DNA of 64,000 bases from Pantoea sp. Ep11b. GTDB taxonomy: Bacteria; Pseudomonadota; Gammaproteobacteria; Enterobacterales; Enterobacteriaceae. How positions within the stretch are numbered: the first letter of the stretch is position 1; each line of letters opens with the position of its first letter. Below, piece after piece: positions 39,428 through 48,183 of the stretch. Location: the NCBI RefSeq assembly GCF_040783975.1, contig NZ_CP160631.1, positions 124,001-188,000 on the forward strand. The letters run 5' to 3'. Made by a program: the position numbers and the translations under genes. The notes under the pieces were generated by a model, which saw only the letters and a program-made list of their open reading frames with translations, searched no databases and was not told the origin of the DNA.

Positions 39428-39571
39428 ATTCATCCTTACATGCTGGTGGACCCCGACCTCCGCGACACCCCGCCATACGTGGTTATCGACGGAACAGGCG
39501 ACCGGAATAACTGAAACGTGAGGCGATTATAAACAAATATATTTTTCATAAAACATGATTACAGAAGAAAC

Positions 39572-39597
39572 ATTTCATTTTGCGAGTGAGATCAAAT
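39572..39597. promoter_or_regulatory. Candidate IolR operator, iolDGE side
   Basis: ATTTCAT, 12 bp, then ATCAAAT. The arms form a dyad with one mismatch. The spacer equals that of three other sites in the cluster. It lies 145 bp upstream of iolD. Confidence 0.6.
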
Positions 39598-39828
39598 TTA
39601 GCGGTTGCAGCGGGTCTGGCGGGAGAAAGCGGCAGGAAAATCCGGAACGTTTTACCGTGCAGCAAGCGGGATGAAAAAATTCATTTCAGTGGGGGCAGCG
39701 TGCCCTGGCGACGAAGAGATCTCTGCGATCGGCCTCACAACCCTGACATGGCGCGCATCGGGATAGCGGATTGCGCGCCGGTGGGTCAGGATCAGGAGTT
39801 TTACCTGGTTCACATATTTGCGACGGAT

Positions 39829-39854
39829 ATTTCATTACAAGTTGTTTATGAAAT
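39829..39854. promoter_or_regulatory. Candidate IolR operator upstream of iolC
   Basis: ATTTCAT, 12 bp, then ATGAAAT: a perfect 7-bp dyad. It lies 119 bp before the iolC start codon. It is the best-conserved of the four sites. Confidence 0.65.
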
Positions 39855-39973
39855 TTTTATTCCTCATACTGCCGCTACAGCCAGTGAGACATTCACAGAC
39901 CCGGGAGCCGGGCAGACATGACGTTGCTCGTTTCGCTCGCCAGCTCTGCTAATCACAGAAGGAAACCACAGGT

Positions 39974-41887
39974 ATGCGTACAGAACAGAAGCCGCTTGAT
40001 GTGATTTGTATCGGGCGAATCGCCGTTGATTTTTATGGCCAGCAGATCGGGGCGAGACTGGAAGATGTCACCTCCTTCGCGAAATATCTGGGAGGTTCGT
40101 CAGGCAATGTCGCCTATGGCACCGCCATTCAGGGACTGAAATCGGCGATGCTGGCGCGCGTGGGCGATGAGCACAACGGTCGCTTTCTGCGTGAAGCGTT
40201 GCAGCGTGTGGGCTGTAACACTGACGCGCTGATCACCGATCCGCGGCGTCTGACCGCCCTGGTGATCCTCGGTATTAAAGATGAAGAGACCTTCCCGCTG
40301 ATTTTCTACCGCGATAACTGTGCCGACATGGGCCTGGTGCCGGAAGATATCGACGAGGCCTTTATTACCTCTTCCCGCGCGGTGGCGGTGACCGGAACTC
40401 ACCTGTCGCACCCACAGACGCGGGCAGCCGTGCTGAAAGCGCTGGATATCGCCCGCCGTCACGGCCTGCGCACCGCGCTGGATATCGATTATCGTCCGGT
40501 TCTGTGGGGGCTGACCTCGCCGGGCGATGGCGAAACCCGCTTCATTGAGTCCTCTCAGGTCACTCAGCAGCTTCAGGAAGTGGTGCACTATTTCGATCTG
40601 ATCGTCGGCACCGAAGAGGAGTTTCACATTGCCGGTGGCAGCACCGATACTCTGACCGCGCTGAAGAGCGTGCGTCAGGCGAGTCAGGCTACGCTGGTCT
40701 GCAAACGCGGCCCGCTGGGCTGCGTGGTATTTGAGGGTGAAATACCGGATAGCTGGGACCAGACGCAGCTGCACACGGGCGTGCGGGTTGACGTGCTAAA
40801 CGTGCTGGGTGCGGGCGATGCCTTTATGTCTGGCCTGCTGCGCGGCTGGCTGAACGATGAGGGCTGGGAACAGGCGTGCCGCTACGCCAACGCCTGCGGC
40901 GCACTGGTGGTTTCACGCCACGGCTGCGCCCCCGCTATGCCTACCAGGGCGGAGCTGGATGATTTTCTGAGCCGCGATGATGCGGTAAAACGTCCCGATC
41001 TCGACAGTCGTCTGAACCATCTGCACCGCGTCACCACCCGCAGGCAGTCCTGGCCAGAGCTGAATGTCTTCGCCTTTGACCACCGCAAGCAGCTGGCGGA
41101 GATGGCCCAGGAGGCGGGTGTCGATGAAAGCCGCATCCCGCCGCTGAAGCTGCTGCTACTGAAAGCGGCACAGCAGGCGGCCGAAGAGGCGGGATTAGAG
41201 AATAAAAGCGGCATTCTGGCCGATACCACCTACGGACAGAAAACGCTGAATGCCATTACCGGTAAGAACTGGTGGATTGGTCGCCCGATCGAGCTACCGG
41301 GCTCACGTCCGCTGCGTCTGGAGCATGGCAATATCGGCTCTCAGCTGATCGACTGGCCCGCCGAGCATGTCGTGAAATGTCTGGTCTTCTATCATCCTCA
41401 TGACAGTGCTGAACTGCGAAAAGAGCAGGATGAGCTGCTGCTTGACGTCTGGAAGGGCTGCAACAAGAGCGGTCACGAACTGCTGCTGGAGGTGATTCTG
41501 CCTGAGAGCCATCCGGACAAGAACGAGGTTTATTACGTCGATATGCTGAGCCACTTCTACAGCCTGGGCATTAAGCCTGACTGGTGGAAACTGCCGCCGC
41601 TTTCGGCCGAATGCTGGCAGACGATTGGTCGCCTGATTGAGCAGCAGGATCCTGACTGTCGCGGCATTCTGCTGCTTGGCCTGGATGCGCCCGAAGAGAA
41701 GCTCAAAGCTGGTTTTGCGGCGGCGGCTGACGCACCCTGGGTAAAAGGTTTCGCGGTAGGCCGCACCATCTTTGGTCAGCCTTCCCGCCAGTGGCTGCAG
41801 GGTGAGCTGGATGATGAGGCGCTGATTGAGACGGTTAAGGGCAACTATCTGCGGCTGATTGAGCACTGGCGCACTGCCCGTGCCTGA
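39974..41887 (+). CDS. iolC: Bifunctional 5-dehydro-2-deoxygluconokinase / DUF2090 aldolase-like protein IolC
   Basis: The 637 residues form two parts. Residues 1 to about 325 are a PfkB-type sugar kinase (KYLGGSSGNVAYGTAIQGL, NVLGAGDAFMSGLL with the catalytic Asp) that phosphorylates 5-dehydro-2-deoxy-gluconate. From about residue 345 follows a DUF2090 domain (LNVFAFDHRKQLAEMAQEAG, GFAVGRTIFGQP), annotated in relatives as 5-dehydro-2-deoxyphosphogluconate aldolase. This would supply the IolJ step, and no separate iolJ is present. The kinase starts after a short AGAAGGAAA leader. It is divergent from iolD and probably transcribed alone. Confidence 0.93.
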   Translation: MRTEQKPLDVICIGRIAVDFYGQQIGARLEDVTSFAKYLGGSSGNVAYGTAIQGLKSAMLARVGDEHNGRFLREALQRVGCNTDALITDPRRLTALVILGIKDEETFPLIFYRDNCADMGLVPEDIDEAFITSSRAVAVTGTHLSHPQTRAAVLKALDIARRHGLRTALDIDYRPVLWGLTSPGDGETRFIESSQVTQQLQEVVHYFDLIVGTEEEFHIAGGSTDTLTALKSVRQASQATLVCKRGPLGCVVFEGEIPDSWDQTQLHTGVRVDVLNVLGAGDAFMSGLLRGWLNDEGWEQACRYANACGALVVSRHGCAPAMPTRAELDDFLSRDDAVKRPDLDSRLNHLHRVTTRRQSWPELNVFAFDHRKQLAEMAQEAGVDESRIPPLKLLLLKAAQQAAEEAGLENKSGILADTTYGQKTLNAITGKNWWIGRPIELPGSRPLRLEHGNIGSQLIDWPAEHVVKCLVFYHPHDSAELRKEQDELLLDVWKGCNKSGHELLLEVILPESHPDKNEVYYVDMLSHFYSLGIKPDWWKLPPLSAECWQTIGRLIEQQDPDCRGILLLGLDAPEEKLKAGFAAAADAPWVKGFAVGRTIFGQPSRQWLQGELDDEALIETVKGNYLRLIEHWRTARA

Positions 41888-41977
41888 TTCACTGCGGCTC
41901 TGCCAGACGCCATCCCGGACGGGATGGTGTTAACCTTTCTGACGACGTCTGCATGGGCTGCTGTGAGGCCGTGCAGC

Positions 41978-42022
41978 CACAGTGAACAGGGTCAGAGCGG
42001 AGAAACGTCATCGCCGCCATCC
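41978..42022 (+). repeat. Copy B of a dispersed 45-bp intergenic motif
   Basis: It agrees with 18408-18452 at 35 of 45 positions without gaps, with an exact GGGTCAGAGCGGA core. It lies about 90 bp after the iolC stop. Confidence 0.5.
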
Positions 42023-42193
42023 CTGCTCGTTAAGCTAAGCCGCTGCAGCCAGCTCCGATTGTTCAGCACTCCGCCCTCCTCCCACCCGGATGTTATTCTG
42101 ACCCGTGACGCTCCTCTCCCCCGCAGACATTCCACGCCGCTCTTTACACGGTTATTGCCTGTCAGGCGGCGCGCTGACGCTAATCTGTGAACC

Positions 42194-42213
42194 ATTTCAT
42201 AAAGACATGAAAT
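42194..42213. promoter_or_regulatory. Variant dyad upstream of iolR
   Basis: ATTTCAT-AAAGAC-ATGAAAT is a perfect dyad with the same arms as the other iol sites but a 6-bp spacer. It lies about 100 bp before iolR and may serve autoregulation, with the regulator bound in a different arrangement. Confidence 0.45.
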
Positions 42214-42310
42214 AAATTGTACTGCTGACGCAAAAAAATGAAATTTTCCATCCATCTGGTACTATAGCGCTCATTATGCAGCCATTATTTCCAGGACACG
42301 GGCAGACGTG

Positions 42311-43153
42311 ATGAACAATAATCCCACCCAACTTTCTCTGTTGCAGGACGATATTCGTCGCCGCTACGAAACGCTGAGTAAGCGGCTTAAACAGGTTGCG
42401 CGCTATATCCTTGATAACAGTAACAGTATCGCCTTTGATACCGTTGCCTCAATTGCCCAGCAGGCCGATGTGCCGCCTTCAACGCTGATCCGTTTTGCCA
42501 ATGCGTTTGGCTTCAGCGGCTTCAACGAAATGAAACAGGTTTTTCGTCAGCACCTGATGGAGGAGACGGTCAACTATACCGAGCGCGCGCGTCTGTTCCG
42601 TCAGACCGCCACGGACGACAGCGCCAGTGCGCCTGAGAGCCCGGCGGAGATCCTGAATGTCTTTACCATGGTGAACAGTCAGGCCCTGCAGCAGCTGGCG
42701 ATGCAGGTTAATCCTGAGCAGCTCAACAAAGCGGTGAAGCTGCTGAACGAGGCGGAAAATATCTATGTCATCGGCCTGCGCCGCTCTTTCAGCGTGGCCT
42801 CCTATCTGGTCTATGCGCTGCGCCATCTGGAGCGTCGTGCGTTCCTGATCGATGGTCTGGGGGGGATGTTTACCGAGCAGCTCAGCCTGGTGAACCCGAA
42901 GGATGTGGTGATTGCGATCAGCTACTCACCCTATGCGCGCGAAGCGGTTGAAGTGGTGGAGATGGGGGCCAAGCGCGGCGCACATCAAATCGCCATTACC
43001 GACAGCCAGGTCAGCCCGCTGGCCGCCTTCAGCGATGTCTGCTTTGTCGTGCGTGAGGCCCAGGTTGATGGCTTCCGTTCTCAGGTCGCCTCTCTCTGTC
43101 TGGCGCAGACGCTGGCGGTTTCCCTGGCGCTCAACAACGCGGAAACCTCCTGA
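42311..43153 (+). CDS. iolR: RpiR-family transcriptional regulator IolR
   Basis: The 280-residue regulator has an N-terminal RpiR helix-turn-helix (residues 1-77; IAFDTVASIAQQADVPPSTLIRFANAFGF) and a C-terminal sugar-isomerase (SIS) domain (about 120-260; IYVIGLRRSFSVASYLVYAL, VVIAISYSPYAREAVEV). In Salmonella the IolR of this family represses iol genes until an inositol intermediate binds. Its location in the cluster makes it the local regulator. A GTG one codon earlier (42308) is possible. It is convergent with iolB. Confidence 0.92.
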   Translation: MNNNPTQLSLLQDDIRRRYETLSKRLKQVARYILDNSNSIAFDTVASIAQQADVPPSTLIRFANAFGFSGFNEMKQVFRQHLMEETVNYTERARLFRQTATDDSASAPESPAEILNVFTMVNSQALQQLAMQVNPEQLNKAVKLLNEAENIYVIGLRRSFSVASYLVYALRHLERRAFLIDGLGGMFTEQLSLVNPKDVVIAISYSPYAREAVEVVEMGAKRGAHQIAITDSQVSPLAAFSDVCFVVREAQVDGFRSQVASLCLAQTLAVSLALNNAETS

Positions 43154-43175
43154 ATCTGACCGGCTCGCCTTGCAG

Positions 43176-43204
43176 AAAGGGCAGCCCACGGGCTGCCCTT
43201 TTTC
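43176..43204. terminator. Bidirectional terminator iolR/iolB
   Basis: AAAGGGCAGCCC and GGGCTGCCCTTT form a 12-bp stem with a short loop. A T tract follows on the plus strand and the matching A tract serves the minus strand. It lies between the convergent iolR and iolB. Confidence 0.93.
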
Positions 43205-43226
43205 ACTGCCTGAAACCGTTCCGGCG

Positions 43227-44045
43227 TTACTCGGTGCGCGGATAGCGGTCGCTGTTGACCCAGGCGTGATCTTTCTCCCAGCTGAATTTCCACAGCCGCA
43301 CCGGCCCTGCCATGACATTCAGATAGTAGTTGTTGTAACCCGCCAGCGTTGCCACCGGATGATAGCCGCGTGGCACCATCACCACATCGCGATTGTAGGG
43401 GGCCATACAGAGATCCAGCGAACGGTCGTCGGTGTAAACGCGCTGCATGGCAAAACCCGGCTCCGGATCGAAACGGTGATAGTAGGTCTCTTCCAGATAG
43501 GTTTCGTTTTCACTCTCCTCCTGGTCGTGCTTGTGGCTGGGATAAGAGCTGGTGTCGCCCTCGTTGGTATAGACCTCAACCACCAGCAGACTGTCTGCCG
43601 GTTCACTGTCAGGCAGAATATTGTGGACCAGGCGCTGATTGCGCCCTTTTCCGCGATGTTCGACGCCGACATCCGCAGGTGAAATCAGTCGCGCCGGCAG
43701 ATTCCCCTGACCGGGTGCGTTACAGACGGCCAGTTCGAGATCGCTGTCCGCGTAAACGACCACCTCATCATCATGCGGTACGTAGACGGAATAGGGCGGC
43801 ACGCGCTCAAAGGGCGACATGCGCTGACCAATGCCGGGGAACTCAGCATGGCGGGTTTTTACCGAGGCCAGCCCGGCAACCAGCACCAGGCACAGCTCTT
43901 TATCACCGCTGCTCAGGTGCAGGGTTTCCCCTTTTTTAAGCAGATAGGCATCAAAGCCAACATAACGCCAGCCTGCCCGCTCAGGCGTAACATGCTGAAT
44001 ACGGCCCTGCGCGTCAGGGGCCTGGGCTTTCGACAGTAAAGACAT
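43227..44045 (-). CDS. iolB: 5-deoxy-glucuronate isomerase IolB
   Basis: The 272-residue bicupin isomerase converts 5-deoxy-glucuronate to 5-dehydro-2-deoxy-gluconate, the substrate of IolC. The metal-binding cupin motif is SYPSHKHDQEE...ETYYHRF, with His and Glu ligands. GYHPVATLAGYNNYYLNVMAG near the C terminus adds the last His. The ATG at 44045 follows an AGGAGG-AT-CAGG leader. It is 117 bp downstream of iolA on the same strand and probably shares its transcript. Confidence 0.94.
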   Translation of the reverse strand: MSLLSKAQAPDAQGRIQHVTPERAGWRYVGFDAYLLKKGETLHLSSGDKELCLVLVAGLASVKTRHAEFPGIGQRMSPFERVPPYSVYVPHDDEVVVYADSDLELAVCNAPGQGNLPARLISPADVGVEHRGKGRNQRLVHNILPDSEPADSLLVVEVYTNEGDTSSYPSHKHDQEESENETYLEETYYHRFDPEPGFAMQRVYTDDRSLDLCMAPYNRDVVMVPRGYHPVATLAGYNNYYLNVMAGPVRLWKFSWEKDHAWVNSDRYPRTE

Positions 44046-44162
44046 CCTGATCCTCCTCTCTGTCACGATTGACGCTGCAGTACCTCGCTGCGCGGTGCCA
44101 GCGAATAACGCGACCGGCAGAGTAGCCTGCCGGTCGCGCATCCTGATCAGCGTTGAAATAGA

Positions 44163-45668
44163 TTAGCCGAGTGTCGGCATACTGAATTCAGACACGGTCT
44201 GCTGCCCGGATGGCCAGCGCACGGTGGCCGTCTTCATTCGGGTGTAGAAGCGAACGCCATCCGGCCCGTGAACATTGAGTGCGCCAAAGACGGATCGTTT
44301 CCAGCCGCCGAAACTGTGAAACGCCATCGGCACCGGAACCGGCACGTTAACGCCCACCATGCCCGCTTCCACGTTCTGCACAAATTCACGCGCGGTATGC
44401 CCGTTGCTGGTGAAAATCGCACTGCCGTTGCCAAACTCATGGCTGTTAACCAGCTGCAGCGCCTGGGTATAGTCGGGCGCACGCATGATGCTCAGCACCG
44501 GTCCGAAGATCTCTTCACGCCAGATCACCATGTCCGGCGTGACGTTATCGAACAGCGTGCCGCCGACGTAGTAACCTCCGGCGTGGCCTTCCACCTGGAC
44601 GTGACGGCCATCGACCACCAGCTTCGCCCCTTCCTGCTCGCCTTTGTCGATGTAACCCAGCACTTTCTTCTGGTGCGCCGCCGAGACCACCGGTCCCATC
44701 TCATTCTCATCCGCGCCCTGATTCATGCCAGGGCCGATGCGCAGCGCCTTCACCAGCGGTGTCAGACGGGCAATCAGTTTGTCGGCCGTATCATTGCCTA
44801 CCGCGACCACGACCGGCAGCGCCATGCAGCGTTCACCGGCGGAACCAAATGCCCCGCCCATAATGGCGTTCACGGTGGCATCCAGATCGGCATCCGGCAT
44901 CACAATCGCGTGGTTTTTCGCCGCGCCAAACGCCTGGACGCGTTTGCCATGGGCGCTGGCCGTTTTATAAATATGTTCTGCCACGCCCGAAGAGCCGACA
45001 AAGCTGACTGCGGCAATGCGGGGATCTTTATAGAGCTGTTCGGCATCTTCATTTGAGCTGTGGACTACGTTGAAGACCCCATCAGGCAGGCCCGCTTCGG
45101 TCAGCAGTTCCGCCATGCGCACCGAGGCCGAAGGGTCCAGCGCAGGGGGCTTCAGTACAAAGGTGTTACCGCAGGCCAGCGCGATCGGGAACATCCAGAG
45201 CGGCACCATTGCCGGGAAGTTAAACGGCGTAATGCCTGCCACGACCCCGACCGGTTGCATCAGCGAGAAGCTGTCCACCCCGCCGCCGACATTCGGCGAG
45301 TACTCCCCTTTAAGCAGATGCGGGATCCCGCAGGCAAACTCGATGACTTCAATGCCGCGTGTCAGTTCGCCCAGCGCATCTGACCAGACTTTGCCATGTT
45401 CAGAGACAATCAGTGCCGCCAGCTCATCGCGATGCTGTTCCATCAGGGCTTTAAAGTTAAACAGCACGCGGGCGCGACGCAGCGGCGAGGTTTTCGACCA
45501 GTCGGCAAACGCATTGTGCGCCACGCCAATCGCATGGGCCACCTCATCAGCGGTGCTTTGCGTCAGTTCACGGATGACGTTGCCCGTGGCGGGATCGTAA
45601 ACAGGAATGGTTTCGTTGCTGGCGCTGAGGGTAGTTTTACCGCCAATGAAGTTACCTATGATCGTCAT
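44163..45668 (-). CDS. iolA: Methylmalonate/malonate-semialdehyde dehydrogenase IolA
   Basis: The 501-residue CoA-acylating aldehyde dehydrogenase converts malonate semialdehyde to acetyl-CoA and CO2, the last step of inositol breakdown. NAD-binding motif is ITPFNFPAMVPLWMFP. The catalytic Cys281 lies in GSAGERCMAL. FGAAKNHAIVMPDAD and GALNVHGPDGVRFYT fit the MmsA subfamily and not other aldehyde dehydrogenases. A dyad operator lies about 115 bp upstream. Confidence 0.95.
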   Translation of the reverse strand: MTIIGNFIGGKTTLSASNETIPVYDPATGNVIRELTQSTADEVAHAIGVAHNAFADWSKTSPLRRARVLFNFKALMEQHRDELAALIVSEHGKVWSDALGELTRGIEVIEFACGIPHLLKGEYSPNVGGGVDSFSLMQPVGVVAGITPFNFPAMVPLWMFPIALACGNTFVLKPPALDPSASVRMAELLTEAGLPDGVFNVVHSSNEDAEQLYKDPRIAAVSFVGSSGVAEHIYKTASAHGKRVQAFGAAKNHAIVMPDADLDATVNAIMGGAFGSAGERCMALPVVVAVGNDTADKLIARLTPLVKALRIGPGMNQGADENEMGPVVSAAHQKKVLGYIDKGEQEGAKLVVDGRHVQVEGHAGGYYVGGTLFDNVTPDMVIWREEIFGPVLSIMRAPDYTQALQLVNSHEFGNGSAIFTSNGHTAREFVQNVEAGMVGVNVPVPVPMAFHSFGGWKRSVFGALNVHGPDGVRFYTRMKTATVRWPSGQQTVSEFSMPTLG

Positions 45669-45780
45669 GATGTTGCCTCTTTAAATGGTGAAGTTCCCTG
45701 CAGACGGCCCCTGCAACCTGCCACGCTGCCTGACCAGGCAAACCTGAAAGCGTGGTATGAAGCTATTACAGTGGAATAAA

Positions 45781-45806
45781 TTTTTCAAATAGTTCTTTTT
45801 GGAAAA
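45781..45806. promoter_or_regulatory. Candidate IolR operator upstream of iolA
   Basis: TTTTTCA, 12 bp, then TGGAAAA: a dyad with one mismatch, arms diverged from ATTTCAT but with the same geometry as the other iol sites. Confidence 0.5.
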
Positions 45807-46017
45807 TTTGCTTTTAGCGGCACAGATCGCATTTTCCCGGTTGCTCTTGCCCTGAAGGCGTGCTGCTGGTCGCAGGAGGTTATCTCAGGCCAGCACACGC
45901 CTGGCCGTGTCACATCCGGGGCGTACAGGGGAGAGAACAGTGCGAACTCTAGCGGGTTTTGAGGCATCTGACTGAAACGCAGCAGGGAATTAATGCGAGG
46001 CTGATCTAACAATTTAA

Positions 46018-46043
46018 ATTTCACAATCCCCTATTAATGAAAT
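46018..46043. promoter_or_regulatory. Candidate IolR operator upstream of the iolI-like gene
   Basis: ATTTCAC, 12 bp, then ATGAAAT. The site ends 47 bp before the start codon at 46091, a position suited to repression. Confidence 0.6.
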
Positions 46044-46090
46044 AAATGTTTTCTTTAGTCGCCATACCCTCCCCTTCCTGGAGTTATCGC

Positions 46091-46971: not shown

Positions 46972-48183
46972 CTAGTCTGAAGCGGCGTCTGCCGCCTGAC
47001 GCCGCTGCAGGCGCAGCGTGCAGAAAAACGCCACACAGACCAGTAAAGCCGTCAGCAGATAGACGCGGGAAACCCCGGCGTAGGTCATGATGAATCCGGC
47101 CAGCGGGCCGGTAATGCCCAGCGAGAGATCCATAAAGGCGGTGTAGGTTGCCAGCGCACTGCCCTGATTCTGCGGCGGCATCACTTTTACCGCCACCACG
47201 CCCAGCGCCGGGAACACCAGCGAGAATCCGGCCCCGGTCAGAAAGGCGCCCGCTTTGGCCATCCAGGGCTCGCCCGCCGCGGCAACCAGAAACAGCCCGG
47301 CCGCTTCAACCGCCAGGCAGAGGCTGGCGACCCGCAGGCCACCGTGACGGTTAATGGCGTTCGGGAACAGCAGACGCGCGCCGACGAAGGCGCCGCTGAA
47401 CAGAGAGAGGGCAAAGGCGGCCCCTTCCCAGCCCTTCTCCTGATAGAACAGAGTAATAAAGGTGGCGATGACGCCAAATCCGGCCGATCCCATCGCAAGG
47501 ATGGCACCAAAACCCGCAACTTTTCCCAGCACCGCCCTAAACGGCAGCGGCCTGGCCCGGCTCGCTTTTACCGCCGGGCGCGGCACCGCGCAGGCGATAC
47601 CCACAATGCAGATAGCCACAATCACCAGCGACAGCCACAGCAGTCCGCCCGCCCGGAATATCATCACGCCGAGCGGCGCGCCTATCGCCATCGCGCCGTA
47701 GGTGACGATGCCGTTCCAGGAGATGACCCGGCCGATGTGCAGCGAACCGACCCGCGCCACCCCCCACAGTGAGGTGCCCGTGCCGGTAAAACTCTGACCC
47801 ACGCCAAGGATCAGCCTGCCCAGACAGAGCAGCGTCAGGCTTAGCAGCGGTGAGGCGATCAGCGCCGCCAGCAGAATACAGAAACCGCTGATCAGGCAGC
47901 CTGCCAGGCCTATCACCACCACTTTTTTTGGGCCCCAGAGATCGGCATAGCGTCCGGCATGCGGGCGGCTCAATAGGGTCGCCACATACTGCAGGCTGAT
48001 CACCAGCCCGGCCCAGAACGCGCTGAACCCCAGCTGCTCATGGACCCATCCCGGCAGCACCGCCAGCGGCAGACCGATGGTGAGATAGCTGGCGAAGTTG
48101 TAGGCCACGATAGAGAGGATCAGCAGAGAGATGCTCAGGTTTCCGGCTGGCGTATTCGGTTCCGCTGCAGGCTGTTCAGGCAT
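46972..48183 (-). CDS. yhhS: MFS transporter YhhS
   Basis: The 403-residue, 12-span major facilitator protein matches E. coli YhhS (405). SYLTIGLPLAVLPGWVHE, SRPHAGRYADLWGPKK (the MFS loop 2-3 motif) and GRVISWNGIVTYGAMAIG are nearly the same. YhhS has been linked to arabinose and other efflux, but its natural substrate is uncertain. In E. coli it follows dcrB; here it marks the right edge of the inositol cluster. Confidence 0.95.
   Translation of the reverse strand: MPEQPAAEPNTPAGNLSISLLILSIVAYNFASYLTIGLPLAVLPGWVHEQLGFSAFWAGLVISLQYVATLLSRPHAGRYADLWGPKKVVVIGLAGCLISGFCILLAALIASPLLSLTLLCLGRLILGVGQSFTGTGTSLWGVARVGSLHIGRVISWNGIVTYGAMAIGAPLGVMIFRAGGLLWLSLVIVAICIVGIACAVPRPAVKASRARPLPFRAVLGKVAGFGAILAMGSAGFGVIATFITLFYQEKGWEGAAFALSLFSGAFVGARLLFPNAINRHGGLRVASLCLAVEAAGLFLVAAAGEPWMAKAGAFLTGAGFSLVFPALGVVAVKVMPPQNQGSALATYTAFMDLSLGITGPLAGFIMTYAGVSRVYLLTALLVCVAFFCTLRLQRRQAADAASD

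Follow-up and report, generated by a model that had tools for sequence, protein, structure and literature searches.

Predicted IolR operators of the Pantoea sp. Ep11b iol cluster: 16-bp palindromes, often with a second site about 30 bp upstream

We analyzed the iol (inositol) gene cluster of Pantoea sp. Ep11b within a 64,000-nucleotide stretch of its genome (NCBI RefSeq assembly GCF_040783975.1, contig NZ_CP160631.1, positions 124,001 to 188,000 of the forward strand), here called the window and numbered from its first letter, and describe putative operators of the repressor IolR in its promoters. The cluster comprises iolE, iolG and iolD on the minus strand, iolC and iolR on the plus strand, iolB and iolA on the minus strand, and an iolI-like TIM-barrel gene on the plus strand. 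In a domain search the IolR protein scored above the cut-offs of both PF01418 (HTH_6) and PF01380 (SIS), and no NCBIfam equivalog model reached its own cut-off; the name IolR rests on the neighboring genes and on annotated relatives. The promoters of this cluster share a palindrome that probably serves as the binding site of IolR.

An earlier note on this DNA had described a 26-bp dyad with a constant 12-bp spacer before the iol genes. The arms are present as it wrote them: ATTTCAT-N12-ATCAAAT at 39572 before iolD, ATTTCAT-N12-ATGAAAT at 39829 before iolC, TTTTTCA-N12-TGGAAAA at 45781 before iolA and ATTTCAC-N12-ATGAAAT at 46018 before the iolI-like gene, with an ATTTCAT-N6-ATGAAAT form at 42194 before iolR. 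The occurrence of these dyads is non-random. For the exact dyad with a spacer of 4-14 bp, 0.00 places are expected in the shuffled window, and the whole 4.03-Mb genome holds two, before iolC and iolR, with none for the reversed-pattern control. Allowing up to three mismatches, the N12 form has 5 matches in the window compared with 1.44 expected, and two of the five (58693 and 58701, which overlap) are outside the iol cluster.

To define the conserved unit we used the best 80 of 338 confirmed places with an IolR of 88-99% identity, three loci with an IolR of 62-84% identity, and the window, giving 84 loci, of which 57 non-redundant loci with 254 promoters were kept. The palindrome search used expectation-maximization from random starts, was blind to spacing, weighted the genes equally and covered widths 14-30. 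The unit that emerged unsupervised is tGAAAtATATaTTTCa, i.e. GRAA-N6-TTYC. GAAA-N6-TTTC was recovered at 8 of 9 widths, and width 22 gave a GAAA-N2-TTTC register. When symmetry was not forced (92 promoters, 21 loci), widths 20 and 28 yielded TGAAATaTTT.TTCC and width 16 yielded AAATGAAAttTTT.tT. The strict form GRAA-N6-TTYC is found in all 49 iolA promoters and in 51 of the 55 iolC promoters; among control promoters it occurs in 2/51 for iolB and 0/30 for MFS genes. The MFS gene beside the cluster at 46972 was accordingly rejected as a target.

A matrix trained only on 14 distant loci (Serratia, Yersinia and three further) picks out the iol promoters of the window. At width 16 the first four ranks in the whole 64 kb are sites before iolA (45772), iolD (39533), iolC (39849) and the iolI-like gene (46038), followed at ranks 5-8 by 39673, iolR (42208), 37482 and 46008. 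The first seven matches of the width-24 matrix are all iol promoter sites, and so are the top eight at width 20, where the N2 register emerged. When each gene in turn was left out of a search seeded with the N6 word, the omitted promoter ranked 1 for iolA, 3 for iolC, 5 for iolD, 5 for iolI and 8 for iolR. With random starts on a smaller set, leaving out iolA or iolI led to the N2 register and ranks of 7 and 9. These results bear on the possibility that the sites are a chance likeness of A/T-rich promoter DNA retained by common descent. A/T-rich stretches do reach moderate scores (95% level 7.9), but training that omits the gene, or that uses distant loci only, still selects the iol promoters, and the whole-genome dyad count likewise speaks against chance, so that we regard this explanation as extremely improbable. 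As a separate observation, the segment 37482-37497 at the end of iolD, before iolG, holds the strong palindrome TAAAATTAATATTTTC (score 15.8).

The comparison with relatives changes how the dyads are read. The geometry proposed in the earlier note is kept at two of its five sites, iolC and iolI, and not at iolD, iolA and iolR. TTYCA-N14-TGRAA is present in 51/55 iolC and 29/38 iolI promoters, 6/49 iolA promoters (at scattered positions; the N12 form occurs in 24/49), 0/55 iolD promoters and 0/57 iolR promoters, while an N8 form is found in 19/57 iolR promoters. The set of 84 loci holds 73 copies of ATTTCA-N14-TGAAAT, spread over 58 loci, and 46 copies of the N8 form, spread over 45. The constant 12 bp resulted from the choice of arm boundaries: measured between TTTCA and TGAAA, the spacer is 14 at iolC and iolI, 12 at iolA and 8 at iolR. 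The spacer differs between genes because the right-arm GAAA is mostly followed six bases later by TTCC, TTTC or a near form (24-33 aligned loci). At iolC, iolI and iolR the right arm is the left half of a GRAA-N6-TTYC site, and at iolC and iolI the left arm is a half-site of the neighboring site. The iolD arm ATCAAAT and the iolR arm ATTTCAT overlap CRP-like sites. Judged by sequence, the arms are mostly the facing halves of two neighboring predicted sites 28-31 bp apart, paired wrongly.

If one IolR dimer or a pair of dimers instead read the inverted ATTTCAT-N12-ATGAAAT dyad itself, the conserved spacing at iolC and iolI would be explained, and a seeded inverted-N14 model does rank iolC 1, iolD 2, iolI 3, iolA 5 and iolR 13 in the window. 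At an equal width of 24, however, the weighted log-likelihood ratio of the inverted dyad in the seeded comparison is 241 versus 336 for the N6 palindrome, the dyad is missing from the iolD and iolR promoters of relatives, its arms there coincide with CRP-like sites, and it differs from the published form of the IolR site (PMC2597717, in the text available). We therefore rejected the N12 dyad as the operator and consider it very unlikely that IolR reads it. The N6 dyad before iolR was also rejected as a second class of operator; conservation of its left arm is partial, and this arm falls on the right half of a CRP-like site. That these are operators of an RpiR-type IolR forming a compact regulon, as the earlier note had proposed, is well supported by the comparison of sequences; its 26-bp unit is not.

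Promoter regions were scored with the well-known −10, −35 and CRP (TGTGA-N6-TCACA) consensus words. A TATAAT-like hexamer lies 17 bp from the start of the main palindrome (site A) at iolD (mean of 5.53/6 matches) and iolA (4.59). For iolC the best downstream hexamer is at offset 16 and is weak (3.95, tied with offset 0), and the offset scan of the promoter sets gave no clear −10-like hexamer for iolI and iolR. The best CRP-like match upstream of the core lies at 50 bp in 48/55 iolC promoters and at 48 bp in 46/55 iolD and 25/57 iolR promoters. CRP-like sites with at least 8 of 10 matches are found in 50/55 iolC, 47/55 iolD and 40/57 iolR promoters (shuffled 1.3, 1.7 and 2.3). Those at iolA (5/49) and iolI (0/32) are not above shuffles (3.3 and 1.0); at iolA they are often at 44 bp and are poor matches. 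CRP binds iol promoters in Salmonella, as described in the available part of PMC10783015. The CRP-like sites before iolC, iolD and iolR may correspond to that arrangement; binding was observed there, whereas the sites here are recognized by their sequence, and those at iolA and iolI do not exceed shuffles.

We searched for a second site within 60 bp of the best site in 247 of the 254 promoters (seven scoring below 8 were dropped). In 128/247 of them the top-scoring partner lies at a distance of 28-30 bp, and in 46/247 at 25-26 bp; the corresponding numbers for shuffled flanks are about 16 and about 13. The highest mean partner scores occur upstream of the core, at −25/−30 for iolC, −29 for iolD, −28/−29 for iolA, −30 for iolI and −26/−31 for iolR. 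In the window the partners score 6.8 at iolD (29 bp), 9.1 at iolA (28 bp), 12.2 at iolI (30 bp), 12.4 at iolR (31 bp, core 42239) and 1.2 at iolC (25 bp). At site B of iolC only the N14 half-site is conserved. The iolC and iolD cores are mostly 315-317 bp apart, and a third site between them, near 39673, recurs as a site of at least 10 located 140-141 bp from the iolD core in 21/54 loci. Upstream of iolR, two direct copies of ATGAAAT are conserved in many relatives. The coordinates of all predicted features are given in Table 1.

Table 1. Predicted operator, promoter and CRP-like features of the iol cluster (window positions; ranks are those of the width-16 matrix trained on distant loci)
Feature	Position	Strand	Remarks
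iolC operator A (predicted), TGAAATTTTTATTCCT (GAAA-N6-TTCC)	39849..39864	+	rank 3; core of at least 8 in 55/55 iolC promoters
−10-like CATACT directly downstream of iolC operator A	39865-39870	+	
iolC half-site TTTCA of the weak upstream site B	39830..39834	+	inside dyad left arm; N14 conserved in 51/55
iolD operator A (predicted), sense TGAAAAATATATTTGT	39533..39548	-	rank 2
TATAAT after iolD operator A	39526-39531	-	offset 17; mean 5.53/6 matches over 55 promoters
iolD site B (predicted)	39562..39577	-	29 bp from A; holds dyad arm at 39572; score 6.8
Third operator-like site, middle of iolC-iolD intergenic region	39673..39688	.	score 16.0
iolR upstream site (predicted), TGAAATAAATTGTACT	42208..42223	+	rank 6; overlaps dyad right arm at 42207
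iolR promoter-proximal site (predicted)	42234..42254	+	register ambiguous: AAAAATGAAATTTTCC at 42234-42249 or TGAAATTTTCCATCCA at 42239-42254
iolA operator A (predicted), sense TGAAAAATTTATTCCA	45772..45787	-	rank 1
−10-like TGTAAT after iolA operator A	45765-45770	-	
iolA site B (predicted), TGGAAAATTTGCTTTT on plus strand	45800..45815	-	28 bp from A; holds dyad right arm; score 9.1
iolI-like gene operator A (predicted), TGAAATAAATGTTTTC	46038..46053	+	rank 4
iolI-like gene site B (predicted), AACAATTTAAATTTCA	46008..46023	+	30 bp from A; overlaps dyad left arm; rank 8; score 12.2
CRP-like site before iolC, TTTTA-N6-TCACA	39799..39814	+	
CRP-like site before iolD, TTTGA-N6-TCGCA	39581..39596	-	overlaps dyad arm ATCAAAT
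CRP-like site before iolR, TGTGA-N6-TCATA	42186..42201	+	overlaps left arm of N6 dyad
iolR, RpiR-family repressor gene	42311..43153	+	HTH_6 and SIS; frame in the open reading frame list begins at GTG 42308

With Erwiniaceae, Serratia and Yersinia as the training set and the supplied N6 word as the starting point, a matrix finds similar sites before iol genes of other bacteria. In Klebsiella (20.8 kb) the top three matches are at iolA, iolC and iolD. In Sinorhizobium meliloti (16.8 kb), whose IolR is only 41% identical, the top four comprise two sites before iolC, exactly 30 bp from each other, one before iolR (score 5.4) and one before the Gfo/Idh/MocA gene that stands upstream of iolR. The Gfo/Idh/MocA gene is iolY by operon order, and the proven IolR sites of this species, as cited in the accessible text of PMC8877191, are before iolY, iolR and iolC only; our matrix finds all three regions. 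In Salmonella (5.2 kb) the top match is inside mpl, and the other four of the top five are upstream of iol genes: two precede iolT2 at a distance of 30 bp from each other, one of these within a small hypothetical gene, and one each precedes iolT1 and iolR. In E. coli (5.8 kb) the top match (11.0) is before iolR. Proteus and Photobacterium gave strong matches in unannotated records that are not tied to genes.

The class of operator is known from Caulobacter crescentus, where an RpiR-type IolR has the motif GGAANATNCGTTCCA, GGAA-N6-TTCC, before iol genes, with two copies before iolC, and mutating one copy raises expression (PMC2597717, in the part available). The N6 palindrome found here, G[A/G]AA-N6-TT[T/C]C, is richer in A/T, and the copies are 28-31 bp apart compared with 59 bp in Caulobacter (104 and 45 bp before the start). 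For enteric IolR we found no printed operator in the literature covered, including the available text of PMC7239862, PMC9430895 and PMC6288124, with RegPrecise and subscription papers outside the scope; the class as such is published for the alphaproteobacterial IolR. In Salmonella Typhimurium, IolR bound iolR, iolT1, iolT2, iolA, iolC1, iolD1 and reiD in electrophoretic mobility shift assays, and surface plasmon resonance gave one low-nM and one >300 nM site at iolT1, iolR and reiD, which the authors connect with the prolonged and bistable lag seen with inositol (PMC5349611). The high and low affinity sites and oligomer binding reported there fit a strong A and a weak B; the portion of that paper covered gives no motif, and the Salmonella sites were placed here by sequence, with modest scores. 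A second RpiR-family regulator, NanR of Streptococcus pneumoniae, has an 18-bp near-palindrome, TCTGAAAGTACTTTTAGA, and a tetramer proposed to bridge a complete site and, at 23 bp from it, a degenerate half-site, comparable to the predicted A/B pair; it differs in being an activator, in its closer half-spacing and in an effector that leaves DNA affinity unchanged (the available text of a preprint, PMC12713135).

Outside the cluster, a search of the genome for single sites gave too many matches to serve as a regulon finder and was abandoned for that use. Of the 20 non-iol places retrieved, one stands out by its strong partner, the two sites scoring 17.9 and 11.3 at a distance of 30 bp. It lies before a TIM-barrel, isomerase-like gene (G000:C1:793652-794527; L175 3650-4528), 627 kb from iolR and beside a lacI-type gene. 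This gene, 84-90% identical, stands between iolE and iolG in Klebsiella (L141) and in three other loci (L041, L202 and L203), and it is present in 37/40 genomes of the genus group. Among 25 loci, a site above 9 directly upstream of it is found in the window genome, L184 and L197 only. In L205 and L206 the isomerase-like gene follows the oxidoreductase gene gfoB in a satellite locus that also holds a lacI-type gene and the iolE-like timE, whose protein scores below the IolE cut-off. The satellite locus was not used in training, and we examined it in 25 stretches, two of which have none of these genes and two of which (L204 and L205) are nearly identical. Each of the 18 timE promoters has its best second site at 29 bp, and 17 of the 19 gfoB promoters have theirs at 29-31 bp, with some weak partners, down to −0.8; the isomerase's own promoter has its second site at 30 bp in 2/3. 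One further timE with a pair is present in G023, and G033 repeats a locus already counted. The four distant timE relatives (L231-L234) are without a pair. G013 lacks a close IolR (best E 1e-12); its isomerase gene is without a site, and the stretch covered does not hold the other genes of the locus either. An inositol transporter was rejected as a distal target: in the stretches covered, neither of the two best-matching iolT1-like genes, with identities of 34% and 31%, has a site scoring over 6.4.

An alternative is that the sites belong to another protein that reads A/T-rich DNA, either H-NS or, in the satellite locus, its LacI-type regulator, rather than to IolR. The sites of H-NS are unlike a defined palindrome with fixed spacing, and this counts against H-NS. 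The satellite promoters flank a lacI-type gene, and in one genome (G011) where the LacI-type protein begins differently and IolR is retained the pair is absent; at the satellite locus itself, ownership of the sites by the local LacI-type protein is a live rival. For H-NS, interaction with 16 regions of the iol island of Salmonella is described in the available text of PMC10783015. Within and around the iol cluster, however, no lacI-type gene is present among the open reading frames examined, and the motif is common to iol genes from Klebsiella to S. meliloti, over which IolR identity falls from 84 to 41%. Among 295 genomes of the order, 7 have relatives of timE (E <= 1e-100), and 6 of these 7 have IolR compared with 36/295 overall; yet three of the seven are of one genus and the distant ones are without sites. 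For the sites as a whole we judge a protein other than IolR to be unlikely.

We consider it likely, from the comparison of sequences, that the iol promoters carry IolR operators that are 16-bp palindromes, with a strong site A, in some of them next to a −10-like hexamer, and a weaker site B about 30 bp upstream; sequence, conservation, spacing and held-out prediction are the observations behind this account. Several results weigh against it. Under the strict motif iolD (13/55) and iolI (8/38) are degenerate and iolR fits poorly (11/57), and at least one of the iolI counts (L041) is the iolA core of a shared intergenic region. The iolD and iolR promoters also fit the N2 register, which is marginally better when iolA is left out (181.9 versus 181.0). 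A genome-wide scan with a strict pattern returned 31 rows at 27 places, of which 2 are iol, versus 15 rows for the reversed control; 20 of the 25 non-iol places were retrieved, and five score 17.9-18.7. Single sites are not confined to the iol cluster. The relatives are not independent of one another. At iolI and iolR the partner scores average below zero, so that many of these promoters have only a poor partner, and in the window three of six partners (iolC 1.2, iolD 6.8 and 39673 at −6.7) are below the 95% level of 7.9 of A/T-rich non-iol DNA. The Salmonella sites score only 8-12, below a match inside mpl (14.9), and both timE copies of G011, whose IolR is 92% identical, are without the pair.

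Some observations concern iolR itself. An iolR-like gene (60-80% DNA identity) is present in 57/5426 complete E. coli genomes, and 53 of its 60 places are chromosomal. Several PLSDB "plasmid" records with an iolR-like gene (H1, H3, H14) look chromosomal, either by size (records of 5.4 Mb and 4.1 Mb) or by content (fbp and mpl beside iolR). In a relative's 1.4-Mb assembly the iolR match (G051:C8:70991-71824) contains one in-frame TAA. Three loci (L052, L053 and L060) have a further iol-like cluster, whose RpiR protein shares 36-37% identity with IolR; motif matches in these clusters are mostly weak, with one of 17.5 in L060.

In the proposed mechanism, one operator would be a 16-bp palindrome, TGRAA-N6-TTYCA, with an A/T-rich center, presumably bound by an IolR dimer. 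A −10-like hexamer would directly follow the strong site A at iolD and iolA (less clearly so at iolC), so that bound repressor would cover the core promoter. The weaker site or half-site B, about 30 bp or three helical turns upstream, would be on the same face of the DNA, which would allow both sites to be occupied by two dimers or by a single tetramer; at iolC and iolD, B would sit between A and the CRP-like site. The dyad first reported at iolC, iolI and iolA would then be the inner half-site pair of A and B. We infer that DKGP, an inositol breakdown product, would release the repressor, as reported for Salmonella IolR; DKGP also releases IolR in S. meliloti (PMC8877191, in the text available).

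More tentatively, IolR of the Enterobacterales may act as a tetramer that reads pairs of operators separated by three helical turns, in which case the pair rather than the single palindrome would define the regulon, and relocated inositol genes would stay under IolR; we hold this broader proposal to be possible, somewhat short of an even chance. The operator class itself is already known, since the Caulobacter GGAA-N6-TTCC motif and the effect of mutating one copy are published, and the pair architecture is a useful new detail. The matrix also indicates a candidate IolR target outside the cluster. Together, the candidate operator, the spacing of the pair and its place in the promoter make the Salmonella model of two affinities and bistability (PMC5349611, as far as its text is available) directly testable.

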